From NCBI GenBank assembly GCA_946409515.1, contig CAMJWS010000005.1, positions 1 through 64,000 on the forward strand: DNA of 64,000 nucleotides, in the 5' to 3' direction. The notes beneath the pieces were generated by a model, which was not told the origin of the DNA, searched no databases, and saw only the letters and a list, made by a program, of their open reading frames with translations. The position numbers and the translations under genes were made by a program. Source of the stretch: an uncultured Caryophanales bacterium (GTDB taxonomy: Bacteria; Bacillota_I; Bacilli_A; RFN20; CAG-826). Positions 6,181 through 37,485 of this stretch are shown piece after piece (position 1 is the first letter of the stretch; each line of letters starts with the position of its first letter).

Positions 6181-6185
6181 TTTCT

Positions 6186-20641: not shown

Positions 20642-22444
20642 ATGGCTAGACAATATAAGTTATTAGAAGTTGAAAACCTCAATACTTCGTTCAAGATTGA
20701 CGCTGGTAAAGTGTTATCCGTCAACGGTGTCTCTTTCACCTTGGAAAAAGGAAAAGTCTTAGGCATCGTTGGTGAATCTGGTTCAGGCAAATCAGTTACT
20801 GCATACTCAATCATGGGTATCTTAGATAAAAACGGTAAAGTCGATGGTGGCAAAATCATCTATAACGGTACCGATTTATTAAGAATTTCTGAAAGACAAA
20901 TGAGAGACATTCGTGGTAACCGTATCTCCATTATCTTCCAAGATGCGATGACCTCACTTAATCCAACTTGGACAATTGGTAATCAATTAAGAGAAGCAAT
21001 TCTTACACACGCTAGAGATCCAATTGAAGCAGCAGTCTATGACATTAGAAACGCGATTGAAAGTGATGAACAAAGACTTGTCTCCATGAGAAAAGGTATT
21101 GCTCACCACCCAGATAATCAAAAACTAAAAGATGACTATGCGACTATTGAAAAGAAATTAGTGGATGATAAAGCCGCTTTCGAAGTCGAATATAAGAAAG
21201 CTGTTGAACGCTATAAAGTAATGAAAAAGGAAGCGCGCGAAAAATATAAAGCCGCATTGCCAGAGTTCAAAGCAATCTACGATGGTTTCAAAAATGATCA
21301 ATATGACACTAATATTCCTCACTTTGATGAAGAAGTAGTGGATGAAGCTAGAAGGCTAAAAGACAATATCGAAAAGGCTGATGCTGATCTCCCAATCAAG
21401 CAAGATAAATACAAACAAGCCGCAGCGAACCTTAATGATTATCAAAAATCAAATGAAGCCGCTAAGAAAGAGGCTGAAAAGGCAGCTAAAGAAGCGGCTA
21501 AAAAGGCTCCAAAAAATAAAAAGGCTAAAAAAGAACCTAAAAAGAAAGAGCCAAAGCAAGTCGATGAAAAACTTCTAGCTCTTCAAAATGAAGTCTCTAA
21601 AGCAAAAGATGAACTCAATAAAGCTATTAGAGCTACTAAGAGAAGTAGAAGACTCTTCAGAAGACATGCTAGAAGAGCCAAGAGATGGTACTACTGGGAA
21701 TGTATTTCCGAATATAAGGAAACAAAATATTCCGCGAATAAGAAAGCATTAAAGATGCTTGAAGAGGTTGGTATCACAGAGCCAAAGAAGAGAATGAAAC
21801 AACACCCATTTGAAATGAGTGGTGGCATGCTCCAAAGAGCAATGATTGCGATGGCTTTAGTGGAAAGACCTGACATCTTAATCGCTGATGAACCAACAAC
21901 CGCGTTAGACGTCACCATCCAAGCCCAAATTCTTGAATTATTAAAGAAATTACAAAAAGAATACGGCATGGCTATCATTATCATCACTCACGACTTAGGC
22001 GTTGTTGCCCAAATCTGTGATGAAGTTGACATCATGTATGCCGGTAGAATCGTTGAAAGAGGCACAGTGGATGATATCTTCTACAATCCTCAACACGAAT
22101 ACACTAAAGGCTTATTAAACAGTATGCCTAAGCTTGATAGCAAAGGTAAACGACTCGAACCAATTCAAGGCAACCCAGTTGATCTCTTCTGCTTACCAAA
22201 AGGTTGTGCCTTCTCAAGTAGATGTAAAGAATGTATGGAAATCTGTATTGAGAGATATCCAGAAGAAGTGCAATACGATGAGAAAGGTCACGCCGCTAGT
22301 TGCTGGAAGATGATTAAAAAACTCTATGAAGAAGGAAAAATTGACATCGTTAACGGTGTGCCTGAAGGTAAACCACTAATGTATAACGGTGCCATTATCG
22401 CCAATAAGAAAAAAGAAAGGAGCAAAAATGAACAAAGCAAATAA
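20642..22444 (+). CDS. oppD: Oligopeptide ABC transporter ATPase OppD with a large coiled-coil insertion
   Basis: An ATPase of 600 aa, where OppD is normally ~340. Walker A GESGSGKS is near residue 46 and the Q-loop ([12 protein letters not shown]) near 97. About 240 extra residues then run from ~125 to ~370, rich in Lys, Ala and Glu with heptad-like spacing ([18 protein letters not shown]), before the signature MSGGMLQRA near 392 and Walker [13 protein letters not shown]. The C-terminal oligopeptide-transporter segment with cysteines ([14 protein letters not shown]) is present. The insertion is in frame with intact motifs both sides, so it is not a frameshift. ATG 20642 follows SD AGGTGA. 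oppF begins inside its 3' end. Confidence 0.93.
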
Positions 22445-23696
22445 AGAACAATTTGATAGAGACATCAATCGTGATCCTAATCAAGATTTGTCTTTATTAG
22501 ATCAAGAAGTCAAAAAAGTCAAACGTGACATCAAAGATGACGACTATATCTTGGAAGTTAAAAACTTAAAGATGTATTTCCCAATCGCGACTTCTGTCTT
22601 TAAAACTGTTCCTTTAAAAGCGGTCGATGATGTTTCATTCAAGATTAGAAGAGGTGAAACATTAGGCCTTGTTGGTGAATCAGGATGTGGCAAAACTACT
22701 TTAGGTAGAGCTATCCTTCAACTCTATAAACCTACCAGCGGTCAAGTCATCTTCAATGGTGAAGAAATTAAGGGTAAAGCCGCATTACAAGAATTTAGAA
22801 AGAAAGCAACTATCGTCTTTCAAGATCCTTATTCTTCTCTTGATCCAAGAATGACTGTTAACGACATCATTAGTGAACCTCTTAGAATTCACCATACATG
22901 TCGAAAAGACGCGATGAATGCTCGTAAGGTCTATAAAGAAGAAAGCCCTGCAATTATCGCTAGAATCAAGCAACTTGAAAAAGAATATAAGGCGCTTGTG
23001 GCGCAAAAAGATGTTAGTAGATCAAAGCTCGAAAATAAGAAACAAGAACTTGTAGAAGAAAGAAAACATCTCAAAGAACTCAGGAATCAATGTAGTGAAA
23101 GATACTACATGAATAAGCGCGTCGCAGACTTAATGGAAGCCGTAGGCTTAAGTAAAGAACACGCTTCACGTTATGTACACGCTTTCTCTGGTGGTCAGCG
23201 TCAAAGAATTGGTATCGCTAGAGCGTTAGCCTCATCTCCAGAATTCATTATGTGTGATGAACCAGTCAGTGCTCTTGACGTTTCCATTCAAGCGCAAATC
23301 CTTAATACGTTCCAAGATTTACAAAAACAATTTGGTTTAACGTATCTATTCGTGGCTCATAACTTATTAGTTGTGAAACACATCTCAGACCGTATTGCAG
23401 TTATGTATCTCGGTCACATTGTTGAACTCGCCAATTCGCAAGAATTGTACGATAACCCCCTCCATCCATATACGATATCACTCCTATCATCTATACCAGA
23501 ACCTGACCCAAAGAAAGCCAGGGCCAATAAGAGACAGATCTTAGAGGGTGATATACCATCTCCACTTAAAGCTCCAAGTGGTTGCCCATTCAGAACAAGG
23601 TGCCCTAAGGCTACGCCTGAATGTGCGAACAAACTTCCAGAATTAAGGGAGATTAGCAAGGAACACTTTGTTGCTTGCCGACTATTCGACGAATAG
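22428..23696 (+). CDS. oppF: Oligopeptide ABC transporter ATPase OppF with a shorter coiled-coil insertion
   Basis: A 422-aa second ATPase. Walker [10 protein letters not shown] near residue 82, Q-loop [11 protein letters not shown], signature [14 protein letters not shown] and Walker [13 protein letters not shown] are intact. Between the Q-loop and signature (~157-229) sits an extra ~70-residue charged helix ([27 protein letters not shown]), at the same place as the larger insertion in OppD. The C-terminal cysteine segment ([14 protein letters not shown]) is typical of Opp ATPases. The start at 22428 has SD AAAGGAG and overlaps oppD by 17 nt. Confidence 0.93.
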
Positions 23697-23739
23697 TCAA
23701 ATGACCATATATAACGCCGAGAGGCTTATATAGGTTTCT

Positions 23740-23764
23740 AAAAAGTACAGCGAAGGTGCTTTTT
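23740..23764 (+). terminator. Weak terminator/attenuator hairpin between oppF and oppA
   Basis: A 9-bp stem AAAAAGTAC/GTGCTTTTT (one G-U) with a 7-nt loop, followed by GG rather than a longer T-run. Such partial terminators or 3'-stabilising hairpins commonly set different levels of binding protein and transporter mRNA. Confidence 0.5.
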
Positions 23765-23804
23765 GGAAAAAACAAATTCTAATTTTAATAAAGGAGGAAA
23801 TGCT

Positions 23805-25643
23805 ATGAAAATTAGAAAAAACTCATGGCTCGTTCTCGCTGGTACAGCGGCTATGGCATTAGCTGCCTGTGGCGGTCCAAAGAGCCAATCTCTTACAGTC
23901 TGTTTAGCTAGTGAACCACAATCTCTCGACCCAGCATTAAACTCTGCGGTTGACGGTGCCACTATGTTAGTCCACTTAGACAGTGGTCTTTATCGTTATC
24001 AAAAGAAAGGCGATGCTCTTGAATTAACTCTCGACTTAGCCGAAGAGATTTCAAAAGCACAAGCCGAAGTTATCGACCATGAACCAGATGGTGACGGTTG
24101 GAAAGAAGTTAAATATCCTAACGGCACAAGATATACCGTTAAACTTCGTAAGGGTATTAAATGGTCCGACGGTTCCGCAATTACTGCTGATGACTTCATC
24201 TATTCCTGGAACAGAGCTAGTGGTGCTTCTTTAGGTGGCGACTACTGCTATATGTTCGAACAAATCGCTGATGGTGTTGCCCATGAAACTGATGATGCAG
24301 CCTACCCATCACTTGCACTTAAGAAAGTAGACGACAGAACATTCACTTTCGACGTGATGGTAGACGTTCCATACATGGATCAACTCTTAGCCTTCCCAAC
24401 ATACTTCCCAGTCCAAAAAGCGGCTATTGACGCTAACGACAGCGAAGAAGCTGGTACATGGGCTACAAATCCATCCACATTCGTTTCTTGTGGTGCTTAC
24501 AAGATGTCAGCTTGGGAACACAATTCCTACATCACACTTGTTAAGAATCCTAACTACTGGGATGCCAAGAACATTAAATTAGACAAGATTACCTTCGCAC
24601 TTTCTGATGATGATAATGCTATGTTGGCCTCTTATAAGTCAGGCGAATATCAAATGATCGACAGTGTTCCAAATGAACAAATCGACACCTTGAAGAAGGA
24701 CTTCCCAAATGAATTCGTTATCGCTGGTCAAATGGGTACATACTACATCTCATTCAACGTTAACTCCACAGTCTTTGAAAAAGCTGCTGATGAAGCTGCT
24801 AGAGCTAAAGTTAGAAGAGCGTTAGGTTTATTCATCGACAGAGAATACATCGTTAAAGAAATTGGTAAAGCTGGCCAAATCCCAGCCAACGCCTTCGTCT
24901 CCGCAGGTTTAAGTGACCCAGCCGGTGGTGAATTCGTTGATCACAATGGTAAAGCTCGTGATGGTAAAGGCTATTACGACAAGGGCGAAACTGATGAAGC
25001 TTATGCCGCTAACATCGCTGAAGCTGTTGCTTTATTAAAAGAAGTTGGCTATGCCTACGATGAAACTCAAAAGAAATTCACAGACTTCCCAGCCTTCAAG
25101 TACTTGTACAATACTTCTTCAGGTCACCAAGCCATTGCTGAAAACGTCAGAGACACATTAGCAAGATATGGCATTACCGTTAACCTTGAAAACCAAGACT
25201 GGAGCCAATTCTTACAAACCAGAAAAGAAGGTAACTATGACGTTGCTCGTAATGGTTGGGTTGCTGACTACGATGATCCATCTTCATACTTAACAATGTG
25301 GACCACTGTTTCCGGTAACAATGACTGCCAATTCGGTAAAGGTGATCATAAAGACGCTGCTGTCTACGAAGCAGACTTAAATAACAACGGCACAATCGAA
25401 GACAACGAAAAGAACCTCACATGGGCTCAATCATATGACGTTTTAATGAACAACGCTGCTAAAGAAACAGATCCAGCAAAAAGATTCCAAATCTTGCACG
25501 CTGCTGAAGACGTCTTAATGTCCACAGGTGCTATCTGCCCAATCTACTACTACACAGATATTTATATGCTCAAGAGTAACGTTGAAGGATTCTTCTCCTC
25601 ACCATTAGGATACAAATTCTTCATGTACTGCAACGTTAAATAA
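23805..25643 (+). CDS. oppA: Oligopeptide-binding lipoprotein OppA
   Basis: A 612-aa solute-binding protein (SBP_bac_5 family) anchored by lipidation at LAAC-G (Cys near residue 21). Family motifs are clear: EPQSLDPALNSAVDG, KWSDGSAITADDFIYSW, NPNYWDA, and the Asp/Glu-rich ligand-binding lobes. It captures extracellular peptides for OppBCDF. The ATG at 23805 has a strong SD (AAAGGAGG); upstream in-frame codons would disrupt the signal peptide. Placement after oppF, behind a hairpin, fits separate tuning of its level. The codons look strongly biased, consistent with high expression. Confidence 0.95.
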   Translation: MKIRKNSWLVLAGTAAMALAACGGPKSQSLTVCLASEPQSLDPALNSAVDGATMLVHLDSGLYRYQKKGDALELTLDLAEEISKAQAEVIDHEPDGDGWKEVKYPNGTRYTVKLRKGIKWSDGSAITADDFIYSWNRASGASLGGDYCYMFEQIADGVAHETDDAAYPSLALKKVDDRTFTFDVMVDVPYMDQLLAFPTYFPVQKAAIDANDSEEAGTWATNPSTFVSCGAYKMSAWEHNSYITLVKNPNYWDAKNIKLDKITFALSDDDNAMLASYKSGEYQMIDSVPNEQIDTLKKDFPNEFVIAGQMGTYYISFNVNSTVFEKAADEAARAKVRRALGLFIDREYIVKEIGKAGQIPANAFVSAGLSDPAGGEFVDHNGKARDGKGYYDKGETDEAYAANIAEAVALLKEVGYAYDETQKKFTDFPAFKYLYNTSSGHQAIAENVRDTLARYGITVNLENQDWSQFLQTRKEGNYDVARNGWVADYDDPSSYLTMWTTVSGNNDCQFGKGDHKDAAVYEADLNNNGTIEDNEKNLTWAQSYDVLMNNAAKETDPAKRFQILHAAEDVLMSTGAICPIYYYTDIYMLKSNVEGFFSSPLGYKFFMYCNVK

Positions 25644-25665
25644 TCTTTGATAATCGTGTTTAACA

Positions 25666-25699
25666 AAAGGCCTCTTGCTTAACGCAAGGGGCTTTCTTT
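25666..25699 (+). terminator. Terminator of the opp operon
   Basis: Strong hairpin AAAGGCCTCTTGC/GCAAGGGGCTTT with loop TTAAC, followed by CTTTT. Confidence 0.88.
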
Positions 25700-25738
25700 T
25701 ATATTTACAATCAAAATCCATTATGATTGAATATTCTT

Positions 25739-25790
25739 AGTCGGTTGATATAGCGACCCTAATGAGTGGGACTTCGATACCGACTTTTTC
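25739..25790 (+). ncRNA. Structured RNA-like unit, copy 1 of 2
   Basis: The unit opens AGTCGGTTGATATAGCG, has a CCC/GGG inner arm, then CTTCGATACCGACT and TTTTT. The outer stem AGTCGGT/ACCGACT is perfect and is followed by a T-run, so the 3' end is a terminator-like hairpin. A TATGAT -10-like box lies at 25722-25727, about 12 nt upstream. It looks like a free-standing ~50-nt transcript rather than a leader, since no plus-strand gene follows closely. Copy 2 shares the internal sequences but has compensatory changes in the stem. I do not recognise the family. Confidence 0.55.
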
Positions 25791-25825
25791 TTTACATCAG
25801 TAATCTGCTATGTTTTAATTAATTT

Positions 25826-25876
25826 AGTCAGTTGATATAGCGTCCTTAATTGAGATGCTTCGATACTGACTTTTTA
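25826..25876 (+). ncRNA. Structured RNA-like unit, copy 2 of 2
   Basis: Same layout as the unit 87 nt upstream: AGTCAGTTGATATAGCG, an inner arm pairing GCGTC with GATGC, CTTCGATACTGACT, then TTTTT. The outer stem is AGTCAGT/ACTGACT, so the G-C pair of copy 1 is an A-T pair here: covariation that supports a real structure. TGCTATGTT at 25806-25814 is an extended -10-like box. The T-run overlaps the last codons of the minus-strand basic protein gene, so the two transcripts would be convergent. Confidence 0.55.
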
Positions 25877-26170
25877 TTTTTTCTTAATTCTTTTAACTTT
25901 TCGTTTATCGTTTGGATGAAATTTCCATCCTTCTCTTTTCTTGTCAAAGGATTCATTTTCATCTATATAAACTTTAGGAATTAAATACACATCTTGATTT
26001 GACTTGGGATTAGGATGTTTATAAAGCCTTATATTCTTTTTGATTCTCTTATGTTCTTTTCTAACAGACTTGGAAGATAAAATGATATTTTTTCTTTTGG
26101 AACCAACATCCTTGAATAAATAAGAATAATGTTTTCTTCTTCGATTGTATCTAAATTCGCTTCGTGACAT
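25874..26170 (-). CDS. Small, very basic protein of unknown function
   Basis: A 98-aa protein rich in Lys and Arg, beginning MSRSEFRYNRRRKHYSYL and ending in KRKVKRIKKK. No signal peptide or membrane helix is seen. The charge suggests nucleic-acid binding, but I do not recognise a named family. The minus-strand start has SD AGGAGG at good spacing, but that SD is the 3' arm of a strong hairpin (26171-26207), so translation or transcription is probably conditional. It is divergent from the glycosyltransferase at 26264 and converges on the small-RNA-like unit. Confidence 0.7.
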   Translation of the reverse strand: MSRSEFRYNRRRKHYSYLFKDVGSKRKNIILSSKSVRKEHKRIKKNIRLYKHPNPKSNQDVYLIPKVYIDENESFDKKREGWKFHPNDKRKVKRIKKK

Positions 26171-26207
26171 AAAAAGCCTCCTATTAATTAAATAGGGAGG
26201 TTTTTTG
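26171..26207. promoter_or_regulatory. Hairpin masking the SD of the basic-protein gene; also terminator-like
   Basis: On the plus strand GCCTCCTATT pairs with AATAGGGAGG, extended by flanking A/T runs. Read on the minus strand, the downstream arm contains AGGAGG, the SD of the gene starting at 26170, and the upstream arm carries the complementary CCTCC; TTTTT then runs into the ATG. It may act as an attenuator or thermometer-like switch. On the plus strand the following TTTTTTG would allow termination. Confidence 0.6.
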
Positions 26208-26263
26208 ATTTTTGTCCGAAAAAGTTATGCAAATATACAAAAAAAGATACAATAATAAGTGCT

Positions 26264-27334
26264 ATGGAAAAAATTAGAATCAATATGTTATCACAAGCCA
26301 CATCTGTTGATGGTCAAGGTGTTGGCAGTGCTTATATCGAACAAGTCGCATTGGTAAAAGAAAATGATGATATCTTTGAAGTGGAAATCAATTCAAAGAA
26401 ATCCAACTTTGATATTTATCATATGCATACATTTAATCCTCAATATGTGATGAGATTAAATAGACGTCATATTAATGTCACTTATGTGCACTGCTTACCT
26501 GAAACATTTGATGGCTCACTTAAAATGCCTAAGCCAATTTTCTGGGCATTTAAGAAATATGTTAAACACGCTTATAAGAAAGCCGATGAAGCAGTAGTGG
26601 TTAACCCTATCTTTATTGAACCATTAGTGAAACTTGGTTTAAAAAGAGAAAACATTACTTATATTCCTAACTTCGTGGATCATGAAAAATTCCATGAATT
26701 ACCTTTAGAAGAAAGAAACGCTTTAAGAGATAAATACGGTATCCCTCATGATAAGTTCGTCATTATGGGATGCGGACAAGTTCAAACAAGAAAAGGTGTT
26801 AAAGATTATGTTGAATGTGCGAAACGTAATCCAGATAAAGTCTTCGTTTGGGCGGGTGGCTTCTCCTTTGGTTCTATGACTGATGGTTATAAAGAACTTA
26901 AAGCCATCATGGATAATCCTCCAGAAAATGTGAAGTTCATTGGTATTATTCCAAGAACTGAAATGAACGGCATCTTCAATATGTGTGATTTATTATTCAT
27001 GCCATCATTTGATGAATTATTCCCAATGTCTATCTTAGAAGCTGTTAATTCTAGAAAACCTGTCTTGTTACGTAATCTAGAGTTATATGAAGATATCTTA
27101 TTCGTTAATAAAGATACATATGCAAAAGCCCCTGATGTTGATGGCTTCTGTGAACAAATCAATAAGTTAGCCACAGATAAGAAATATTACGAACACTATC
27201 AAGAAGGTAGTAAATATATCTCAGACTTCTATAGTAAGGAGCACGTTAAGAATCTTTGGCGAGAATATTATCAAAGAATCTATAACAAGTGGGCGCCACT
27301 TAAGAAATTAAAAACAAGAAAGAAAAATAAATAA
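26264..27334 (+). CDS. GT4-family glycosyltransferase
   Basis: A 356-aa GT-B enzyme. The N-terminal domain has INMLSQATSVDGQGVGSAY and IYHMHTFNP, seen in Bacillota glycolipid/LTA glycosyltransferases. The C-terminal domain has GCGQVQTRKGVKDYVE and the E-x7-E motif region DELFPMSILEAVNSRKPVLLR (~residues 245-265). It probably adds a hexose to a lipid or polymer at the membrane inner face; the acceptor is unknown. A TACAAT box ends ~9 nt before the ATG without an SD, suggesting a leaderless start. Together with the gene at 3721 it could form a two-step glucolipid pathway. Confidence 0.78.
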   Translation: MEKIRINMLSQATSVDGQGVGSAYIEQVALVKENDDIFEVEINSKKSNFDIYHMHTFNPQYVMRLNRRHINVTYVHCLPETFDGSLKMPKPIFWAFKKYVKHAYKKADEAVVVNPIFIEPLVKLGLKRENITYIPNFVDHEKFHELPLEERNALRDKYGIPHDKFVIMGCGQVQTRKGVKDYVECAKRNPDKVFVWAGGFSFGSMTDGYKELKAIMDNPPENVKFIGIIPRTEMNGIFNMCDLLFMPSFDELFPMSILEAVNSRKPVLLRNLELYEDILFVNKDTYAKAPDVDGFCEQINKLATDKKYYEHYQEGSKYISDFYSKEHVKNLWREYYQRIYNKWAPLKKLKTRKKNK

Positions 27335-27344
27335 AGGAACCAAT

Positions 27345-27761
27345 ATGAGTAAATTATTCGACACACTGTTTTCTTATGGATTTCACGATACAACAATATC
27401 AAATATAAAAGTCTGTGAACATCAAGTAAAAGTGCATTTTGATAAAGGTTTATACGCTTTAGATAAAAATGGCAGAGAAACAGAACTTACAAAGCCTATT
27501 GTTTTAGTTATTGATATTGATAAAAATCATGGTCTTGTCGCTTCACAAACTGTCACCGTCCTAAGATACTCTAATAAGAGGTTTCATAAAGGATTAAAAC
27601 GTTTAGATGTTGAAGAAATCAAAGAATCAGAATTAGCGAACCTATTAATTGGAAACGTCTACTATTCTGACTTTAATAACACGGTATTATTTGAAGCGTT
27701 TGGGAATGGTTGCTCCTATTACATTAATATTTCAGAATGTGTAGGATTCAAATTTGAATAA
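27345..27761 (+). CDS. Conserved-looking hypothetical protein, 138 aa
   Basis: A soluble, mixed alpha/beta protein starting MSKLFDTLFSYGFHDTTISNIKV, without signal peptide or membrane helix. The opening GFHDTTI..IKV pattern resembles small immunity-like or DUF proteins that begin with a GxHD segment, but I cannot name a family. It lies 10 nt after the glycosyltransferase with SD AAAGGAA, so it is co-transcribed. Confidence 0.65.
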   Translation: MSKLFDTLFSYGFHDTTISNIKVCEHQVKVHFDKGLYALDKNGRETELTKPIVLVIDIDKNHGLVASQTVTVLRYSNKRFHKGLKRLDVEEIKESELANLLIGNVYYSDFNNTVLFEAFGNGCSYYINISECVGFKFE

Positions 27762-27780
27762 ATAAGTAATAGCGTAATTA

Positions 27781-27789
27781 TGCTATTAT
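27781..27789 (+). promoter_or_regulatory. Extended -10 promoter 6 nt before a start codon
   Basis: TGCTATTAT (TG at 27781-27782, -10 hexamer 27784-27789) ends 6 nt before the ATG at 27796. Transcription would begin at or next to the start codon. Confidence 0.6.
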
Positions 27790-27795
27790 GACTTC

Positions 27796-28368
27796 ATGAA
27801 GAGAAAGATTTATCTTAAGACATCAGCTTTTTCTTTAATCATTCAAGCAGTCATTGTCATATTTCTTTTGCTTGATATCTTTCTCGCGGTATTTTTCACT
27901 TTTGGTGTTTTAACATTTAATTTCAAATTTGATTTTGAAAAACAAGTCGCTACTGTTTTTACGGTTATCTTTTATGCCAGTATCATTCCACTTACATATT
28001 TAGAATTAACATTCCTACTTGGGAATATCTACTTAGGTAAAAACAAAATATTCACACGTGGTGACTTCAAACTCGGTATATGTAAGACTCAATATCATTC
28101 AGAGATGAAATATGAAGATATTAAAAGAGTTTCCATTTTAGCGTTGCGTCGTAATTCTCGTGGAGGATATAAAAAGTCATTAAAGCCATTACCATATATG
28201 CTTTTAGAAAGTAAGAATGGTAGGCAGGTATTATTCTTATTACGCTTTATGTCCGTTAGAACGGTAAATCATTTATTGGATGAATTATCAAATAGATGTA
28301 GTGGACCAGCAATTAACGTAAATCAACTAGTAAAAGAATTTAGAAACTATAACAAAATCTATAAATAA
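27796..28368 (+). CDS. Two-helix membrane protein with C-terminal PH-like domain
   Basis: A 190-aa protein with two membrane helices (about 12-40 and 52-78), then a cytoplasmic domain with the strand pattern of bacterial PH/YcxB-like domains (KIFTRGDFKLGICKTQYHSEMKYEDIKRVSIL...). Function unknown. No SD is present; an extended -10 promoter sits directly upstream. It converges on arcC, and the two share a terminator. Confidence 0.65.
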   Translation: MKRKIYLKTSAFSLIIQAVIVIFLLLDIFLAVFFTFGVLTFNFKFDFEKQVATVFTVIFYASIIPLTYLELTFLLGNIYLGKNKIFTRGDFKLGICKTQYHSEMKYEDIKRVSILALRRNSRGGYKKSLKPLPYMLLESKNGRQVLFLLRFMSVRTVNHLLDELSNRCSGPAINVNQLVKEFRNYNKIYK

Positions 28369-28404
28369 AAAGCTGGGTATTACTTAATGATTGTCCCAGC
28401 TTTT
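28367..28404. terminator. Bidirectional terminator between the PH-like gene and arcC
   Basis: Perfect stem AAAAGCTGGG/CCCAGCTTTT spanning the gap and the last arcC codons, with T-runs on both strands. Confidence 0.85.
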
Positions 28405-29294
28405 AATTTGAATGCATCTTTCGCGTTATCTAATGAAGCGATAACTGCGGTCTTACTGTTATCTTTTAAGAAGTTAAGTACCGCTTGTACTTTTGGATAC
28501 ATGCTTCCTTTAGCGAAATGTCCTTCTTCTAGATATTTAGCTAAATCGGCTTTCTTAACGTCTTTTAAGACGACTTCGCTTTCTTGCTTATAATTTAGAC
28601 AAACGTTGTTTACAGCGGTCAAAATGACTAAATAATCAGCATCTATGAGCTCCGCGAGCTTTGCAGAAGCGTAATCTTTATCGATTACCGCGGCAACACC
28701 CTCTAATTTATTATCTTGTTTGATGACTGGAATACCGCCTCCACCTGCGCATATAACAACTTGTCCATTATCTAATAATGTTTTAATAGATTCTTTTTCA
28801 ATGATGTCGATTGGCAGTGGTGAAGGAACCACTCTACGATAGCCTCTTCCGGCATCTTCTTTCATGATATAGCCTTTTTCTTTATTTATTTGTTCAGCTT
28901 GTTCTTTTGTGTAGAAGGATCCGATTGGTTTACTTGGATGCAGGAAAAGTGGATCACAAGGGTCCACTTGTACTTGGGTAATAATAGTTGCGACAGTTTT
29001 ATTAATGTTATTTAGTTTAAAAGAATTATATAAGGCGTTTTGAATGTGATAACCGATATATCCTTCAGACATAGCTCCACATTCAGGGAATGGCATATTA
29101 GGTGTTTCCTTGGATGTTTCAAAAGCAAGATTAATCATTCCCACTTGTGGACCATTACCATGTACGATAGCGACTTCGTTACCATCCATAATTAAACCAG
29201 TAATAGCCTCAGCGACTTTTATTAATGCTTGTTTTTGTTCACTAGGATTATTGCCTAGTGCATTGCCTCCTAAGGAAACTACGTATTTTGCCAT
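28380..29294 (-). CDS. arcC: Carbamate kinase
   Basis: ArcC, 304 aa, transfers phosphate from carbamoyl phosphate to ADP, the ATP-yielding last step of the arginine deiminase pathway. The N-terminal LGGNALG, HGNGPQVG, the PFPECGAMSEGYIGY segment and the C-terminal AKGSMYPKVQAVLNF are diagnostic. It is separated by about 7 kb from arcA-arcB, so the pathway is split. It starts 5 nt after the stop of an XRE regulator gene without a clear SD, suggesting translational coupling to that regulator. Confidence 0.95.
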   Translation of the reverse strand: MAKYVVSLGGNALGNNPSEQKQALIKVAEAITGLIMDGNEVAIVHGNGPQVGMINLAFETSKETPNMPFPECGAMSEGYIGYHIQNALYNSFKLNNINKTVATIITQVQVDPCDPLFLHPSKPIGSFYTKEQAEQINKEKGYIMKEDAGRGYRRVVPSPLPIDIIEKESIKTLLDNGQVVICAGGGGIPVIKQDNKLEGVAAVIDKDYASAKLAELIDADYLVILTAVNNVCLNYKQESEVVLKDVKKADLAKYLEEGHFAKGSMYPKVQAVLNFLKDNSKTAVIASLDNAKDAFKLKAGTIIK

Positions 29295-29299
29295 ATTAA

Positions 29300-30091
29300 T
29301 TAATCTTTTTCGTCTGGATCTTTTGGATCATCGTCTTCGTCTTTTTCTTCTTCTTTACCTAAGACTTTGTTAATAGCACCCACAACGGAGTGATAAGCAG
29401 GAATCGCTAAGAACACGACCCACATTGGATGCCATAACATTGGCATAGTGATACCATATGAACCAAGAGCAATTGGTAAGAAGAAGCTCACAAAGAAGAA
29501 TGTAAATGTAGCCACGAACGCCATGTTGAAGTGGTTAGCGTTTCTCTTTACGATTGCTCTAGCAATAGAACAAATGATTTCTGGAATGAAGAAGACAACC
29601 CACATAATGTTCCACCAACCAAGGATCGCGCTTGTTACTACATAAGCGACAATCGCTAAGGTGAATAGTGTAGCTTCAATCGCCCCGATAATAGCCATCT
29701 TGGTATCAAATTGATGTTTCTTGACAGTGCCATCAGCGTTATAACAAGTCACGCCATCATCACCGATAGTGACTTTCTTACCGCCTTTGCCAACGAAGAT
29801 CACGTGATCATCTTTATTAATTTCTACTTTCTCTTCTTGCGCAGGCACTTCTCCTTTAACTTGTTCTTGGACAATTGTGTCAATATCTTCTTCAGTAGCG
29901 AGGAGTTCATCGAGAGATACTCCATATAATTTCGCTAAGCAAATAAGATTATCAGTATCTGGGGAAGCTTCCGCTCTTTCCCACTTACTCACGGCTTGTC
30001 TTGATAATCCTAATTTATCCGCGAGTTCTTCTTGGGAATAGCCATATTTTTTTCTTAATTTAACTAATCTGTCTGCAATTTCAATCGTCAT
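29300..30091 (-). CDS. XRE-family regulator with C-terminal membrane domain
   Basis: A 263-aa protein. Residues ~5-65 are an HTH_3 domain (GYSQEELADKLGLSRQAVSKWE), followed by an acidic linker and a small beta segment (HVIFVGKGGKKVTIGDDG), then four hydrophobic helices and an acidic C-terminus. It may sense membrane or envelope state, or be a ligand-gated repressor. The start at 30091 has SD GGAGG on the minus strand; a longer N-terminus would add a Cys/Gln-rich stretch outside the fold. An inverted repeat GCAAC/GTTGC at 30172-30186 upstream is a plausible self-operator. arcC follows in the same unit. Confidence 0.8.
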   Translation of the reverse strand: MTIEIADRLVKLRKKYGYSQEELADKLGLSRQAVSKWERAEASPDTDNLICLAKLYGVSLDELLATEEDIDTIVQEQVKGEVPAQEEKVEINKDDHVIFVGKGGKKVTIGDDGVTCYNADGTVKKHQFDTKMAIIGAIEATLFTLAIVAYVVTSAILGWWNIMWVVFFIPEIICSIARAIVKRNANHFNMAFVATFTFFFVSFFLPIALGSYGITMPMLWHPMWVVFLAIPAYHSVVGAINKVLGKEEEKDEDDDPKDPDEKD

Positions 30092-30171
30092 AATCGTTTC
30101 CTCCTGTTTTTGACACCAACAATCTAGCAATTTTTCGCTTGGTTGCGCCACCTAGTCTAGTTAGAATTTTC

Positions 30172-30186
30172 GCAACTTTTGGTTGC
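30172..30186. promoter_or_regulatory. Inverted repeat upstream of the XRE regulator
   Basis: GCAAC-TTTTG-GTTGC, with a related GGTTGCG half-site at 30141-30147, in the upstream region of the XRE gene. Arms of 5 bp are short, so this is only a candidate operator. Confidence 0.35.
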
Positions 30187-30189
30187 AAA

Positions 30190-31155
30190 TCACTTGTTTT
30201 TTGCTAAAAAGTCGCCAATAACAGCGTCATAACGCTCTTCATCACTTAATCTTACCCTAGAATGAAGTGCGCCTTCAAACCAAACAATTTCTTTCTTATT
30301 TGAGGAGCAAGCAGCATAGATTTCTTTGCTCTTTTCAGGTAAGCAATAGACATCTTTTGTGCCCCAAATAAAGAGAACAGGAATGTTGTCAAATTTAGGG
30401 ACATAATTAATTGTTTTTGCGTCTTTAATACTGCATTTTGTGAAGTGTTTGAACCACATCCAAATTTGATAATAAACAGGGAATAAAGCATGGCCACTTT
30501 CGATGTAGTGGTTCTTATAGATTTCTTCATAAGTGATAAAAGCACTGTCTAAGATAATGGCTTTTAAATAATCTTTTTTAAATGATGCGGTAGCAATAGA
30601 TGTCGCGCATGTACCAACACAGATACCGTGCAAATATAATTCTTTTTGATTATGTTCGTTATGCATGTATTCCATCCATAATTTAGCGTCTTCTGCTTCC
30701 TTAATACCGCATGTAGAATAAGTACCTTCAGAAAGGCCATGCGCTCTTTGGTCAACCACTAAAACATTAACACCAAGTTTCTTATATGGTTGAGCGTAGT
30801 AATAAGAATACACTAATGTTTCTCTTCTACCTGGAAGAATGATAACTGTTTTATCGTAGCCATAATCAAACCATTCACCAACGAGTTTAAGGCCATCGTT
30901 AGAAGTGATACTTAATTCTTTAATATAAGATTTATCACCTTCAACCCAGGCTAAACCTCTTTTCCACATTGTTTCTAATGCAGGGTTGCCTGGCTCAGAG
31001 CATTCTTTTCTACCCCAAGAGCCTAATTTACCGCGCATTAATGTCTTGCTATAAACTTTATAGGCCACAAGGAATGTGAAAAATACTGAAAATAGTAGAC
31101 CTAAAACTAATAAGGCACCAACAACGATGATAATGATGAGAACTGGTAAAGGCAT
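30190..31155 (-). CDS. Membrane-anchored alpha/beta hydrolase with Cys at the nucleophile elbow
   Basis: A 321-aa protein with an N-terminal membrane helix (~4-32) and an alpha/beta-hydrolase domain resembling YqkD-type enzymes. The nucleophile elbow, normally GxSxG, reads HGICVGTC, with Cys in place of Ser. The candidate acid is Asp in WGTKDVYC and the base is His in ALHSRV. Cys nucleophiles occur in dienelactone-hydrolase-like enzymes, so it may still be active on esters or thioesters; the substrate is unknown. It is the last gene of GT2-DegV-hydrolase, 3 nt after DegV. Confidence 0.85.
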   Translation of the reverse strand: MPLPVLIIIIVVGALLVLGLLFSVFFTFLVAYKVYSKTLMRGKLGSWGRKECSEPGNPALETMWKRGLAWVEGDKSYIKELSITSNDGLKLVGEWFDYGYDKTVIILPGRRETLVYSYYYAQPYKKLGVNVLVVDQRAHGLSEGTYSTCGIKEAEDAKLWMEYMHNEHNQKELYLHGICVGTCATSIATASFKKDYLKAIILDSAFITYEEIYKNHYIESGHALFPVYYQIWMWFKHFTKCSIKDAKTINYVPKFDNIPVLFIWGTKDVYCLPEKSKEIYAACSSNKKEIVWFEGALHSRVRLSDEERYDAVIGDFLAKNK

Positions 31156-31158
31156 AGA

Positions 31159-32100
31159 TTATTTCTTTAATAATTCGTTTAAGATAACAGCTTCTTTTTC
31201 ACACATTGGAGAAACTGGTTCATCGCCAGCATAGAAAGCTGCGGCTAAACCTGGACCAACATTACAACCAGTGGATTGACCAACTGGAACAAAGATTAAG
31301 TTCTTTGGATTGAATGTTTCTTCAATCATCTTTTTCATTTCCAAGGCTTGTGGTTCTCTTAATGAATAAGTGACAACGAATGATTTATTGGTTGGATCAC
31401 CAATTGTTCTTTTAATGTATTCTGGGAATAATTTCATCACTGTTTTATAACCACGTGCCTTACCAATGATTTGGGTTTGACCTGTTTCATTACATAAATC
31501 GCCTAATGGTTTGATACCGATCATATTGCCCATGAAGGCTTTACCTTTAGCGATTCTGCCTTTTCTTGCTAAGAAGAAGAGGTCATCAATGAAACCACAT
31601 TGGTGGATTCTTAATCTAAAGTCTTGTAAATATTTAACAGTGCTGTCAAAGTCCATACCTTTTTCACGGCATAAGCTTGCTTCAATCGCGATTAAATCAA
31701 TCGCGCCACTGTATCTTAATGAGTCGATAACTTTGATTTTAACTTCTGGATATTGTTCCATGACTTCTCTAGCGCCCACAGTGAAAGCACTGTAGCCGCC
31801 ACTCATCGTGGAGGAAATGGTAATAACAACAACGTTTCTGCCAGCTTTGGCTAAAGCGGTTAATCTATCGTTAATTGTTTGAGGAGAAGGAATAGAAGAA
31901 GAGAAGTTATTCTTCTTATTGGTCATTAATGTGAAATATTCATTAGGGGTCATTTTATCCCAATAAATATCGGTTTCTTTATTAGAGCCATCTGGCCAAA
32001 CAACTGTACTAATTGGGGTTTCTTCAATCCCATATTTTTCAATAATTTCTCTTGTAAAATCGCCACCAGCATCGGTGAGGATAGCAAAGCTTTCTTTCAT
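31159..32100 (-). CDS. DegV-family fatty-acid-binding protein
   Basis: A 313-aa DegV/FakB-type protein. These bind a fatty acid so that the FakA kinase can phosphorylate it for membrane lipid synthesis. Visible features are ILTDAGGDFTREI at the N-terminus, SSTMSGGYSAF (the fatty-acid carboxylate-binding loop), FLARKGRIAKGKAF and a C-terminal GCNVGPGLAAAFY. SD AAGGAG precedes the ATG. Its neighbours (a lipid-linked GT2 and a hydrolase) are consistent with membrane lipid metabolism. Confidence 0.88.
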   Translation of the reverse strand: MKESFAILTDAGGDFTREIIEKYGIEETPISTVVWPDGSNKETDIYWDKMTPNEYFTLMTNKKNNFSSSIPSPQTINDRLTALAKAGRNVVVITISSTMSGGYSAFTVGAREVMEQYPEVKIKVIDSLRYSGAIDLIAIEASLCREKGMDFDSTVKYLQDFRLRIHQCGFIDDLFFLARKGRIAKGKAFMGNMIGIKPLGDLCNETGQTQIIGKARGYKTVMKLFPEYIKRTIGDPTNKSFVVTYSLREPQALEMKKMIEETFNPKNLIFVPVGQSTGCNVGPGLAAAFYAGDEPVSPMCEKEAVILNELLKK

Positions 32101-32105
32101 GATGT

Positions 32106-33179
32106 TTAGTTCTCCTTGTTGTTCTTAACAACATATCTATTCTTTAACTTCCATACTAAGTATGCAAGTGGGAAATTAAGTAAAAATGACACTAAAAGGG
32201 CAATTGTATATCCAATTCCCATATAGATGTGACAGACTTCAGTTAAAAACGTCACCATCACAAATATTAATAGCGTTTTAAAAGTCGCATAGCCACCTTC
32301 AATTAATGTTCTTCTACCCATCTTCTTTGTGGGCCACACAAAAGCGGTTATACCAATGAGGGCTTGATAGTAAAAAAGATAAGAAGCCGCTAAAAATGAA
32401 TATTTATAAATACCAACATTTGGCCACACTGCAGTTAGAACTGTTAACATAGCGATGCTTAACAAAGCACAGACAAGAGGAGTAACTGCGTAACCCCAAA
32501 TTGTTCTTTGGATTCTAAATGTATCTAAAGATGGCTTGAAGTGAGAAGAACTGTTGTTATCTAAATAGATAGTTTCAATAGGTACTTCTTCGAACTTTAA
32601 TCTTTTGATTTGAAGGTCACAAATGACATTCATTTCATATTCATAATGGTCACCTTGTAAAGTGGTGATATTGAAAATATCCGCAATTGGGAAACCACGT
32701 AAACCACATTGATCATCAGGAACATATTCTTTAGTTAAAAGTGTTCGACATAATCTGGACATGAAGTTACCATTTCTGCTTCTTTTAGGCACACTTTTAT
32801 CAAACTTACGAGAGCCTAAAACAATATGGTTTGTTTCGTGTAATTTATCGTTAACTTTAATAATATCTTTAACAGCATGTTGTCCATCAGCATCACAAGT
32901 AATGAGGTAATTATGATCCTCGGGATGTAGGTTTACGTATGAAAAACCAAGACGCAATGCTGCCCCTTTTCCGCGGTTAGGATTTTGATCTAAAACAATC
33001 GCATATTTCTCCGCTTCTTTAAAGATATCAGTGAAGTGTTCACCTGAACCGTCGTTTACAACGACAACATCAAAACCTTCCTCTTTTAAACTGACTAAAA
33101 GTTCAATCATCAAGTGATCTGGTTTATAGGCAGGGATCAATATATAAGTATCGTTTCTTGGATAATTAACTTTTTCCAT
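32106..33179 (-). CDS. GT2 glycosyltransferase fused to a GtrA-like membrane domain
   Basis: A 357-aa protein. Residues 1-~225 are a dolichol-phosphate-mannose-synthase-like GT2 domain (ILIPAYKPDHLM, NRGKGAALRLGF, CDADGQH with the DxD metal site, GLRGFP). The C-terminal ~130 residues carry four helices like GtrA, which flips polyprenyl-phosphate sugars. The fusion probably makes and translocates a lipid-linked sugar for envelope glycosylation. A TATAAT box (33189-33194, minus) lies 9 nt before the ATG with no SD, so the unit probably begins leaderless. DegV and hydrolase genes follow at 3-5 nt. Confidence 0.87.
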   Translation of the reverse strand: MEKVNYPRNDTYILIPAYKPDHLMIELLVSLKEEGFDVVVVNDGSGEHFTDIFKEAEKYAIVLDQNPNRGKGAALRLGFSYVNLHPEDHNYLITCDADGQHAVKDIIKVNDKLHETNHIVLGSRKFDKSVPKRSRNGNFMSRLCRTLLTKEYVPDDQCGLRGFPIADIFNITTLQGDHYEYEMNVICDLQIKRLKFEEVPIETIYLDNNSSSHFKPSLDTFRIQRTIWGYAVTPLVCALLSIAMLTVLTAVWPNVGIYKYSFLAASYLFYYQALIGITAFVWPTKKMGRRTLIEGGYATFKTLLIFVMVTFLTEVCHIYMGIGYTIALLVSFLLNFPLAYLVWKLKNRYVVKNNKEN

Positions 33180-33218
33180 TACTACACAATTATAGACAAA
33201 AAAGGATATTTAATAAAA

Positions 33219-33310
33219 TATAATTGCGAATAGTATTTTATTTTGTTAGTATTTATGAGCAAACTTACTTTGGGCGACATTACGGCTCAAGGCGGAAGGA
33301 GAAAAAAGTT
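33219..33310 (+). promoter_or_regulatory. Promoter and leader of rpmE
   Basis: TATAAT at 33219-33224 predicts a start near 33231 and an ~80-nt leader. The leader has a hairpin TTGGGC/GCTCAA (33270-33290) just before the GGAAGGAG SD. Ribosomal protein L31 leaders are known in several phyla as autoregulatory RNAs; whether this is one is a guess. Confidence 0.5.
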
Positions 33311-33523
33311 ATGAAAAAAGGTGTCCATCCAGAATACCATCGTTGCACAGTCACATGCATCTCCTGTGGTAACACATTCGAAACAGGTTCTGTTTTAAAA
33401 GAAATCAAGGTTGATACATGCGCGAATTGCCACCCATACTACACTGGCAAACAAAGATTCGTTCAATCCGATGGTCGTGTCGATCGTTTCAACCGTAAAT
33501 ATGGCTTAAACGAAAAGAAATAA
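33311..33523 (+). CDS. rpmE: 50S ribosomal protein L31
   Basis: L31, 70 aa, zinc-binding (C+) type. [10 protein letters not shown] starts the protein, and cysteines in [10 protein letters not shown] and [11 protein letters not shown] form the zinc site, followed by the family signature [20 protein letters not shown]. The ATG at 33311 has SD GAAGGAG at normal spacing; earlier in-frame codons are leader sequence. It is a single-gene unit with its own promoter and terminator. Confidence 0.96.
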
Positions 33524-33542
33524 TTAAGTATCAAGAAAAAAA

Positions 33543-33576
33543 CAAAGCCCCGAGGCAAAATCGGGGCTTTTCTTTA
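33543..33576 (+). terminator. Terminator after rpmE
   Basis: Stem AAAGCCCCGA/TCGGGGCTTT with loop GGCAAAA and a T-rich tail. Confidence 0.9.
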
Positions 33577-33644
33577 TTTGGTGGTGATATGGGAGAAACA
33601 AGACAAATAGGTTACCACCAAATGCAGTGAGGGAAATGTATTTA

Positions 33645-35138
33645 TTAATATTCTGTATCCATTTGTTTGGTCTTGTTGACCATCGCTTTGAAATCATCTC
33701 TATACTTATCAGTAATGTAATCATCATTAATTCTTTCTAATAAGTGAGTATAAGATGATGTACCTTTGTACTTTGATTCAGTAATAGTTAAGGCATATTC
33801 GGCAACATAACCGGCGAAATCAAAGTCAGCGCGTCTAGAAACACTGATATCTGCTTTAGTGTTAACTACTTCCTTAGATTCCTCGGTAGTTGGATCTTTA
33901 TATCTAAGAGTGGTCTTAAAGAAGAAATTTTCTGGAGTCTCAGTTTTAAGTTCTAACTCGTATAAAGCAACAGTGGTGTGGTCAGACATGATTTCACCAG
34001 CGTCTTTCTTATCGTCTTCAAATTCTTCGTCACTCATTTGTCTGGTTTCGTAACCAAGTAAACGATATGAAGCGACATCGCTTGAGAATTCAATTTGACA
34101 TTTAGCGTCTTTAGCGACGACATATAATGATTTACCTAATTCTTCTTCGAAGACTTTTGTGGCTTCTAATTCATCATCGATATAGTAAGCATTGCCATTA
34201 CCGTTATCAGCGAGAGTGTATAAGGTATCATTGTTATTACTTCTATATCCACAGCAGGTGAGATAAACACCATCTGCGGCTTTTTGTTTAATTAAGGCGG
34301 TTAGTTCTTTACCAGAGACTTTGCCAACGTTGAAGTCACCATCAGTGAGAAGAACCACTCGGTTGTTACCACCGTTGATGAAATATTTATAGGCTAAGTT
34401 ATAGGCTTTTTCGATACCGTCTTCACCATAAGTGCTGCCACGGGATACTAAACTATCTACAACATTATTTAATTTAGTTTTGTCTTTGCCAGTTAAACCT
34501 TCACATTCAATCTTACCTGTTGAAGCATAGGAGACGATGGATACAACATCATCTTCACCTAAGTTATCAACAAGTGTATGAAGTGACTTTTTAACCAAGT
34601 TAAAGATTGGGTTCATTGAACCACTTTTATCAACTAAGACAACGATGTTATTTTTAACATTTTCTGTAATCGCAGGTTTAGCTTTAACAACCACACTCGC
34701 TAAATAGTGTTCATTGTTCCATGGGCAGGCATCTAATTCTAATTTAGTTACTAATGCATCATCTGTGTCATTAACATAACCATAAGAGAAGTAGTTGAGC
34801 ATCTCTTCAATGCGAGCACTGTTTTTAGCATTATACATACTGCCATTATTAACAGCTTGTCTAAGGATGGAATATGAGAACGCTGAACTTGTTAAAGAAA
34901 CGTTACTTGTTTTGTTTTCTCCAGAAACATTCACAAATGGGTTTTCAACAACTTCAGGAACATATTCATAACCATAGTCTTCTTGTTGTTGATAATAATT
35001 GCTTCGACCATTGTTATAGTTTGTATTTCCTCTTGGATTATAGTAGCCTCCATAACCACCATATCCATTACCAGCGGCACAGCCCACTAAACCAGTGGCT
35101 AAAAAGCCGAGAAATAAATATCTAATTTTAAGTTTCAT
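33645..35138 (-). CDS. vWA-domain lipoprotein, YfbK-like
   Basis: A 497-aa lipoprotein: signal peptide with lipobox LVGC (Cys near residue 20), a Gly/Tyr/Asn-rich linker, the YfbK N-terminal segment (ARIEEMLNYFSYGY), a von Willebrand A domain with MIDAS motif DKSGSM and LLTDGDFNVG, and the YfbK-type C-terminal domain. It would sit on the outer membrane face and bind a protein partner through a metal; no partner is evident. The gene has SD AGGAGG. Its promoter, RBS and signal-peptide region match those of the lipoprotein at 63437-63946. Confidence 0.88.
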   Translation of the reverse strand: MKLKIRYLFLGFLATGLVGCAAGNGYGGYGGYYNPRGNTNYNNGRSNYYQQQEDYGYEYVPEVVENPFVNVSGENKTSNVSLTSSAFSYSILRQAVNNGSMYNAKNSARIEEMLNYFSYGYVNDTDDALVTKLELDACPWNNEHYLASVVVKAKPAITENVKNNIVVLVDKSGSMNPIFNLVKKSLHTLVDNLGEDDVVSIVSYASTGKIECEGLTGKDKTKLNNVVDSLVSRGSTYGEDGIEKAYNLAYKYFINGGNNRVVLLTDGDFNVGKVSGKELTALIKQKAADGVYLTCCGYRSNNNDTLYTLADNGNGNAYYIDDELEATKVFEEELGKSLYVVAKDAKCQIEFSSDVASYRLLGYETRQMSDEEFEDDKKDAGEIMSDHTTVALYELELKTETPENFFFKTTLRYKDPTTEESKEVVNTKADISVSRRADFDFAGYVAEYALTITESKYKGTSSYTHLLERINDDYITDKYRDDFKAMVNKTKQMDTEY

Positions 35139-35158
35139 GTTTGGATGACCTCCTACTA

Positions 35159-35187
35159 ATTAGACGATATAAATAGGGGCAACTGCT
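35159..35187 (-). promoter_or_regulatory. Promoter-like motif shared by two lipoprotein genes (site 1)
   Basis: On the minus strand AGCAGTT (35187-35181) is followed after exactly 16 nt by TCTAAT (35164-35159), then AGT and the SD. The same elements with the same 16-nt spacing precede the lipoprotein gene that starts at 63946. Confidence 0.5.
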
Positions 35188-35244
35188 AAAAAATTTTTAA
35201 ACAAAATTGAGACACATAATTAATTATTTTTAACGAAAATGTGC

Positions 35245-35313
35245 GTTTAAATCATTTAAACCGCTACTTGAAAAGTAGGGGGTTGTCGCGAAATTTTAAA
35301 ATGTTATTATATT
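35245..35313 (+). promoter_or_regulatory. Twin inverted repeats and promoter of the EamA-arcA-arcB unit
   Basis: GTTTAAA-TCA-TTTAAAC (35245-35261) and CTACTT-GAA-AAGTAG (35264-35278) stand side by side just upstream of TTGTCG (35283-35288) and a -10 at TATTAT/TATATT (35305-35313). Placement right upstream of the -35 suits an activator or repressor site. The -10 ends 9 nt before the ATG. Confidence 0.5.
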
Positions 35314-35322
35314 GTCCGGCTT

Positions 35323-36285
35323 ATGAAAAAGAAGACTATTGCATTTATCACATTACTAATCGTTGTTGCCTTATGGGGTGTAGCGCCTGTTATTTCAAAA
35401 TCTATTTTCGATGGTGCATCTTATTCACCAGGTATCTTAATTGCCTTGCGTGGATTGTTTTCTATTATCGCGATGGCTATTGTCATCAATAAAGGCTTTA
35501 AGAAAATAAATAAATCCTATCTTATTTGCATACCTGCGGGCATTATATTAGCCGCAGCCTATATCTTCCAATTTGTGGGATTAAAATATACCGTTCCTTC
35601 TAAAAATGCTTTCTTAGAAAATATTTCATGTATCACCATTCCAGTATTCATGTTTATTTTCATTAGAGAAAAACCAACATGGTACAGCATTGTATCCGCT
35701 TTAATTTGTGTAGTTGGTTCCTTGTTCTTAGTGGGCAATGGTTTTGATTTCTTGCACTTCTTTAGAAGTGGTAACTTATTAGGTGATGGTTTATCTGCAG
35801 TTGGTGGATTATTCTTTGGTTTAGATATCGCCTTCACTAAAGTGTTCTGCAAAGATAAAGACCCATTATTATATGTATTTTTCCAATTAGTGGTCCTTAC
35901 AGTAGTGGCCACTGGTTACTCATTCATATTTGAAACAAATGTCTTCCATGAATTTGCTTGCTCATTTAAGATTCTTGATCTCTTACAAGTAATCTTCTTA
36001 GGCGTAGTGTGTACCGCTTTATGCTGGGTTGCTAGAGCCTGGGCAATGAAATCGATTGACGCTGTTACTGTGAGCTTATTAGTACCACTCTCAGCTGTTA
36101 TCGCTAGTGTATTATCAATTTGTTTAAAGATTGAAGAATTCACATGGAACTTATTAATCGGTGGCATTATTATCCTCTTATCCATTGCGGTTTCCGCATT
36201 ATTTGATTATCGTAAAGAGTGTCAAGCTAAGAAACATAGTATCGAGGAGGAAAACGAACATGAAGAATGTCCAAGTGAACTCTGA
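35323..36285 (+). CDS. EamA/DMT-family transporter, coupled to arcA
   Basis: A 320-aa drug/metabolite-superfamily protein with ten helices in two EamA repeats, with typical segments LWGVAPVISKS and FIREKPTWYSIVSALICVVGSLFL. These carry amino acids or metabolites. Its last 26 nt overlap arcA, so expression is tied to arginine catabolism, and no ArcD antiporter gene is in the window; arginine/ornithine transport is a reasonable guess. The C-terminus is charged and cytoplasmic. There is no SD; the -10 box lies directly upstream. Confidence 0.85.
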   Translation: MKKKTIAFITLLIVVALWGVAPVISKSIFDGASYSPGILIALRGLFSIIAMAIVINKGFKKINKSYLICIPAGIILAAAYIFQFVGLKYTVPSKNAFLENISCITIPVFMFIFIREKPTWYSIVSALICVVGSLFLVGNGFDFLHFFRSGNLLGDGLSAVGGLFFGLDIAFTKVFCKDKDPLLYVFFQLVVLTVVATGYSFIFETNVFHEFACSFKILDLLQVIFLGVVCTALCWVARAWAMKSIDAVTVSLLVPLSAVIASVLSICLKIEEFTWNLLIGGIIILLSIAVSALFDYRKECQAKKHSIEEENEHEECPSEL

Positions 36286-37483
36286 AATAGGTCGTTTAAA
36301 AGCGGTTCTTCTTCACGAACCAGGTGATGAACTCCATAACTTAACACCAAAGAAGTTAGATGACTTATTATTTGATGATATTCCATGGCTCCCATTAGCG
36401 AAGAAAGAACATCAAGCTTTCGCTAAAACTTTTAAGGATGCTGGAGTTAAGGTCGTTTATCTTACAGATTTAATGACTGAAGTTTTAGATTCCTCTAATG
36501 AAATTAAAAATCAATTCGTTGAACAATTTATCAAAGAAGCTCATATCAGAAGCAATACTCTTAGAGAAGTCGCTACTGAATATTTAAGAAATATTAAGGA
36601 TAATAAAGAACTCATTTTAAAAACCATTGCTGGTATTAAAAAGAGTGAATTACCTAACTATCAAGTTAAGTCTTTAGCGGATCATGTTGATGATTATCCA
36701 TTTGTTACTGATCCAATGCCAAACTTATATTTTACTCGTGACCCATTTGCCTCTATCGGTAATGGTGTCTCACTTAACAAAATGTATTCCATTACAAGAA
36801 GTAGAGAAACAATCTTTGGTGAATATATCTTTAAGTATCACCCAACATATAAAACCACACCTTTATATTATTCTCGCTATGAGGACGTGAATATCGAAGG
36901 TGGAGACATCATGGTTCTTAATAACCATGTTCTAGTCGTTGGCGTTAGCCAAAGAACATGCGCTGAAGCGGTAGAACGTTTAGCAAAGAATCTCTTCTAT
37001 AACAATGAAACAGATTTTGATACCGTCTTAGCGTTTACCATTCCACAAGCTAGAACATTCATGCACTTAGATACAGTCTTTACCCAAGTGGATGTAAATA
37101 AATTTGCGATTCATAAAGGCTGCTATGAAAAGTTAAAAATCTTTAGAATTACTAAAGACTTCAATAATGATAAGAAAGTCAAAGTTATGGAATTAGATCA
37201 AAAACTTGAAGACGTCTTAGAGTCATATATTGGCTTGCCAGTCACTCTTATCCCATGTGGTGGTGGAGACACTATTAGTGCGGACCGTGAACAATGGTCA
37301 GATGGTAGTAACTTCGTGGCTATTGCCCCAGGTGAAGTCATCGCTTATGAAAGAAACGACATCACAAACGCTGCGCTTATAAAAGCGGGTATTAAAGTCC
37401 ATATCATTCCTTCTAGTGAGTTATCTAGAGGTAGAGGTGGACCAAGATGTATGTGTATGCCATTAGTTAGAGAGGAATTATAA
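36260..37483 (+). CDS. arcA: Arginine deiminase
   Basis: ADI, 407 aa, hydrolyses arginine to citrulline and ammonia. Motifs: N-terminal [31 protein letters not shown], the EGGD motif ([11 protein letters not shown]), MHLDTVFT, and the catalytic Cys near the end in [15 protein letters not shown]. The ATG at 36260 follows SD GAGGAGG; a longer in-frame start would lie inside the EamA gene and add sequence foreign to the family. arcB begins 2 nt after its stop. Confidence 0.96.
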
Positions 37484-37485
37484 AA

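Follow-up and report, generated by a model that had tools for sequence, protein, structure and literature searches.

Two tandem hairpin RNA units that look like antidotes to a convergent MazF-like toxin in an uncultured Caryophanales bacterium

Closest described systems

The pairs txpA/RatA and bsrG/SR4 of Bacillus subtilis are type I toxin-antitoxin systems with a convergent RNA. Type III toxins have a MazF/PemK fold and are encoded in operons in which a single promoter is followed by tandem repeats, a terminator and then the toxin gene on the same strand; the precursor RNA is cut by the toxin, and the resulting monomers are pseudoknotted (PMC5086642). In these systems the RNA neutralises its endoribonuclease toxin by direct binding. 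Direct binding of an RNA has also been shown to neutralise the toxic protein of the AbiF-RCd22 system of Clostridioides difficile (PMC12373285).

Here we describe a locus in a 64,000-nucleotide stretch of DNA (the window) in which two hairpins resemble RNA antidotes, each transcribed on its own, to a small MazF-like toxin encoded next to them. The features of the locus are as follows.

25704 to 25732, plus strand: predicted promoter of unit 1 (-35 TTTACA at 25704-25709, 17-nt spacer, TGn extension, -10 TTGAAT at 25727-25732)
25739 to 25789, plus strand: unit 1, hairpin RNA and T-run (hairpin at 25739-25785; R1 covariance match)
25791 to 25819, plus strand: predicted promoter of unit 2 (-35 TTTACA at 25791-25796, 17-nt spacer, TGn extension, -10 TTTAAT at 25814-25819)
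25826 to 25875, plus strand: unit 2, hairpin RNA and T-run (hairpin at 25826-25871; R1 covariance match)
25874 to 26170, minus strand: open reading frame for a 98-aa basic protein, predicted to be a MazF-fold endoribonuclease toxin (model pLDDT 93.0; Foldseek match to MazF)
26177 to 26200, minus strand: inverted repeat in the sequence, holding the Shine-Dalgarno of the toxin-like gene (CCTCCCTATTTAATTAATAGGAGG)

The locus resembles the type III systems ToxIN/AbiQ, CptIN and TenpIN in its MazF/Kid-like toxin fold (here predicted), in a structured small RNA as the presumed antitoxin, in RNA monomer size (34-50 nt in known systems, PMC5086642; about 46-75 nt here), and in RNA sequences that are conserved within toxin groups and differ between them. 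However, in place of the type III operon, each RNA here has its own predicted promoter, is self-terminating and is convergent to the toxin gene, and the arrays mix RNA classes. No convincing sequence match that would place the protein in the ToxN, CptN or TenpN families was found in Pfam, NCBIfam, PADLOC or PDB sequences. Since operon organisation and sequence both fail, we set the locus apart from the described type III families; we nevertheless say that it probably works like type III, because a MazF-fold toxin with matched structured RNAs follows type III logic. The likeness to AbiF-RCd22 lies in a non-coding RNA that is separate from the gene and has both a sigma-A promoter and a terminator of its own (PMC12373285; predicted here), whereas RCd22 is 100-130 nt long with two motifs and lies upstream of the gene, and AbiF is an Abi_2/Cas13-related protein rather than one of MazF fold (PMC12373285). 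MazEF and PemIK of type II share the toxin fold, but their antitoxin is a protein, and none was noted before the window's gene (the 103 loci discussed below were examined for RNA units). As in txpA/RatA and bsrG/SR4, toxin gene and RNA are convergent with overlapping 3' ends; the toxin type differs, and so do the conserved RNA structure and the tandem and orphan RNA units seen here. The 98-aa basic protein with its predicted MazF fold does not match the small hydrophobic peptide toxins of type I.

Hairpin units and their promoters

The preliminary description placed two units at this site with corresponding positions 87 nt apart, and the sequence bears this out, together with the blocks TTGATATAGCG and CTTCGATA common to both units, the T-run behind each hairpin, and the compensatory outer-stem difference (AGTCGGT/ACCGACT in unit 1 versus AGTCAGT/ACTGACT in unit 2). 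The outer stem of unit 1 is accompanied by an internal loop TGATATAG/CTTCGATA. Unit 2 folds at -16.6 kcal/mol (z -4.4), far more stably than its shuffles, and unit 1 at -14.2 kcal/mol (z -1.6), only moderately better. Almost no space separates the T-run of unit 1 from the -35 box of unit 2, whose own T-run overlaps the stop of the minus-strand toxin-like gene. The earlier remark that no gene follows closely therefore holds for the plus strand and fails for the minus strand, where the convergent gene abuts unit 2.

Both predicted promoters are of sigma-A type, and in each the -10 hexamer ends 6 nt ahead of the first paired base. The boxes first proposed as -10 elements, TATGAT and TATGTT, proved to cover the TATG/TGn extension, the actual hexamers being TTGAAT and TTTAAT. 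In a generic consensus promoter scan, which demands A at -10 position 2, the window's promoters did not rise above chance, and the promoter claim therefore rests on recurrence across loci. When the promoter criterion was removed, a proximal hairpin was detected in 80 loci; an extended -10 ended exactly 6 nt before the proximal hairpin in 30 loci and was very rare at other upstream positions, and -35 boxes with at least 5/6 consensus bases were spaced at 17 nt in 17/17. Because this spacing is fixed ahead of the hairpin, the predicted RNA runs from the hairpin foot to the T-run, and the hairpin, with the promoter ending 6 nt before it and the T-run behind, makes up about the whole of the predicted ~50-nt transcript.

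No Rfam match to the units was obtained for the window and eight related loci, permissive thresholds included. A homologue search did recover further units with compensatory changes in related loci; together with the missing Rfam match and the fixed-distance promoter, this fits the earlier idea that the units are duplicates, belong to an RNA family not yet recognised and are transcribed independently, transcription being a prediction. A plain search of GTDB contigs for the TTGATATAGCG..CTTCGATA pattern gave 58 matches: only 3/58 (L015, L041, L049) had a stem and T-run, and the other 55, lacking these, were treated as chance. Elsewhere in the window, positions 6098-6182 (plus strand) hold an ordinary bacterial small SRP RNA (RF00169, 61 bits).

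Covariation within the RNA classes

Across loci the units are structured, covarying and present in one to three or more copies, as predicted separate transcription units that are not always repeated. The alignments cover four RNA classes. The one found in the window (12 related units) has both-sided changes in 7 of 11 pairs, amounting to 20 such cells; 0/500 column shuffles reached 20 cells, and every slid register gave 0. Its stems vary while GATA and TTC of the internal loop are invariant. The related GATT...CGTA internal-loop class and a branched class likewise have both-sided changes, far more of them than their shuffled and slid controls; the fourth class (GTTAGTG...CACTAAC) is too conserved for covariation testing.

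Linkage to the toxin-like gene

A convergent unit of promoter, hairpin and T-run lies at most 60 nt from the stop codon at 70/103 toxin-like gene ends, a count taken over loci that are related to each other and hence not independent. The same detector was positive in 7.8% of dinucleotide shuffles and at 12/118 ends of other genes in those loci. It reported no proximal unit in 33/103 loci; some of these, such as L076 and L084, are misses of the detector, but L118 together with L122-L124 appears genuinely to lack one.

The linkage was also approached from the RNA. With covariance models as the sole query, 53 loci were counted credible, and in 42 of them a toxin-like gene, intact or broken, lies on the opposite strand 3' of the RNA, although some of these 42 were used in model building and match by construction. 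The distance from RNA to gene in the 42 is mostly a few nt, the farthest being 290 nt. The other 11 have no convergent toxin-like gene; among them L239 holds a toxin wreck and L241 is cut by a contig end.

Apparent orphan units, with no toxin-like gene nearby, were seen at L196, L205, L209, L219, L222, L237, L240, L255 and L256; L240 and L255 adjoin genes resembling phage-type regulators (ORF6N/RhuM-like by eye). L258, a borderline orphan-like unit, was left out of the count. Weak R1 matches (L259-L262) and an R2 match (L210) look like coding sequence and were dismissed as chance.

Pairing of RNA classes with toxin clades

Loci with similar toxins also tend to have similar proximal RNAs (Mantel r 0.594; 0/2000 permutations; 60 non-redundant loci), a much closer relation than that of the toxin to upstream DNA, DNA beyond the unit or the unit's promoter (r 0.18-0.22). 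One genome (G009) carries the second toxin subfamily at the window's site; its proximal unit belongs to the class found with that subfamily elsewhere (L104-L107), and its two distal units belong to the window's class. Units are also retained beside broken toxin genes (L088, L089, L200).

The toxin-like protein

AlphaFold models of two subfamilies were confident (pLDDT 93.8 and 93.0), and the best solved-structure matches of both were MazF endoribonucleases (Foldseek probability 1.00, TM about 0.6) at modest E-values (2e-3 and 0.1). The MazF fold was thus recovered from two separate alignments, and the best viral models, searched with one subfamily, were PemK/MazF proteins; no ToxN or CptN entry was among the 50 structure matches listed. 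The alignments keep a His (mostly HP) at a strand start, a Thr/Ser at the end of the next strand, and an Asp. By sequence order, we infer a resemblance of the His...Thr/Ser to the Arg...Thr pair of MazF and to the Thr/Ser nucleophile of ToxN/AbiQ. The 98-aa protein is thus predicted, on its model, to be a small MazF-fold endoribonuclease toxin.

At the equivalent site, related genomes have a convergent gene for a small basic protein together with one to three units. The contigs with this site are labelled as uncultured Erysipelotrichaceae or Bacilli bacteria, one of them from water-deer omasum. Two such proteins, used as queries against 224 genomes of the taxonomic family, found relatives in 31 and 32 genomes. 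A profile search placed the protein family in 72/279 genomes of the order (about a quarter), with several copies in some; when the class and the phylum were sampled evenly, only a single match lay outside this order. The two toxin subfamilies are homologous (profile comparison: probability 98.2%, E 5e-14). No convincing match to the family was found in Pfam, NCBIfam, PADLOC, PHROGs or PDB sequences, and none to the one subfamily searched in phage and plasmid collections.

Upstream of the genes, a Shine-Dalgarno inverted repeat like that of the window was counted at 36/102 family genes versus 5.2% of shuffles; the automatic count used a stricter stem and left the window's own locus unscored. 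A GGACAAA motif precedes 18/102 family genes versus 1.0% of shuffles. The inverted repeat is possibly a translational or transcriptional brake on toxin expression. The idea that the RNA loop kisses this hairpin was rejected by eye, since radC-linked toxins without a Shine-Dalgarno hairpin still keep the loop.

The window's own genome holds a second, divergent family member (L194, G000:C11:352-666, minus strand), with a weak candidate unit 46 nt past its stop. On G079:C14, positions 21900-38614 (L175, L176, L269, L276, L280, L281), four family genes form two pairs, spaced about 10.5 kb and equal in score, which looks like a duplication or an assembly effect. Family genes are often found immediately behind genes for competence or repair, namely comEC (TIGR00361, E 2e-43) and radC (E 6e-50). 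Others lie between repeated 5' pieces of a helicase gene, which we take to be comFA-like, broken at the Walker A motif (for these neighbourhoods: L105, L107, L078, L080, L161, L109, L111).

Proposed explanation and its rivals

We consider it likely that the locus represents a new type III-like toxin-antitoxin family in which free-standing hairpin RNA genes, frequently grouped in mixed arrays, supply the antitoxins. The minus-strand gene would encode a small MazF-fold endoribonuclease, and each plus-strand unit would be a complete antitoxin RNA gene, made up of its promoter, a hairpin of ~46 nt whose internal loop is conserved, and a U-run. With the U-run at the end of the hairpin, the antitoxin would act as its own terminator, and an RNA produced at monomer size would, unlike ToxI, need no cutting by the toxin. 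By binding to its cognate toxin, the antitoxin RNA would block it. The likely cognate antitoxin is unit 2, which lies at the toxin stop codon; unit 1 is an additional copy of the same RNA class.

Could the RNAs instead be type I antisense regulators that target the 3' end of the toxin mRNA? In favour of this, gene and units converge, with the T-run of unit 2 overlapping the stop codon; moreover, reading the sequence gives no obvious minus-strand terminator between gene and array, so that a long toxin 3' UTR would fully complement both RNAs. Such a UTR is just what antisense pairing would need, the convergent overlap itself being limited to the U-run and stop codon. But pairing of this kind requires neither invariant internal loops with covarying stems, nor structural classes that follow toxin clades, nor other-class or orphan units, and the basic protein with a predicted MazF fold is no hydrophobic peptide. 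The invariant loops, covarying stems and distal other-class units argue against antisense as the main mechanism, and we regard a type I system as unlikely, although the RNAs could act both as antisense and as type III-like antitoxins.

It is more doubtful still that the protein is an RNA-binding regulator rather than a toxin, the units serving as decoy or autoregulatory RNAs with CsrA/CsrB-like logic. A small basic protein adjoining structured RNAs would suit such a role, and nuclease activity does not follow from a fold match by itself; against it stand the MazF fold with conserved His and Thr/Ser, and the toxin-like behaviour of the family, namely patchy spread, multiple copies in one genome, genes found broken, and toxins exchanged at a single site. 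A further rival sees in the units ordinary terminators, serving either the convergent gene or the opp operon upstream and alike by chance or local duplication; we hold this to be very improbable. Each unit does end in a T-run, and terminators are common between convergent genes, but the opp operon already has a separate terminator at 25667-25695. Nor would terminators account for the fixed-distance promoter, tandem copies, invariant internal loops and controlled covariation, for the excess at toxin-like over other gene ends given above, or for RNA-first searches that land on toxin-like genes.

Implications

Together, the two hairpins and the toxin gene seem to represent a toxin-antitoxin family of uncultured gut bacteria that is new and has not been described before. 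A literature search with incomplete coverage of subscription papers and preprints turned up no comparable family of convergent RNA antitoxins. The family occurs in about a quarter of the sampled genomes of one order (72/279) and yet is missing from the family libraries searched. With RNAs this small, sorted into matched classes, both RNA-protein specificity and protection by orphan units are directly testable. If the type III-like reading is right, the RNA-neutralised toxins would gain a protein family, several RNA classes and a gene architecture that differs from those known. We suggest, tentatively and with less confidence than the family itself, that stand-alone, self-terminating hairpin genes in mixed arrays form a heritable bank of RNA antidotes that permits toxin exchange at one site; if so, a genome would gather and keep antidotes to several related toxins, as cognate and orphan units.
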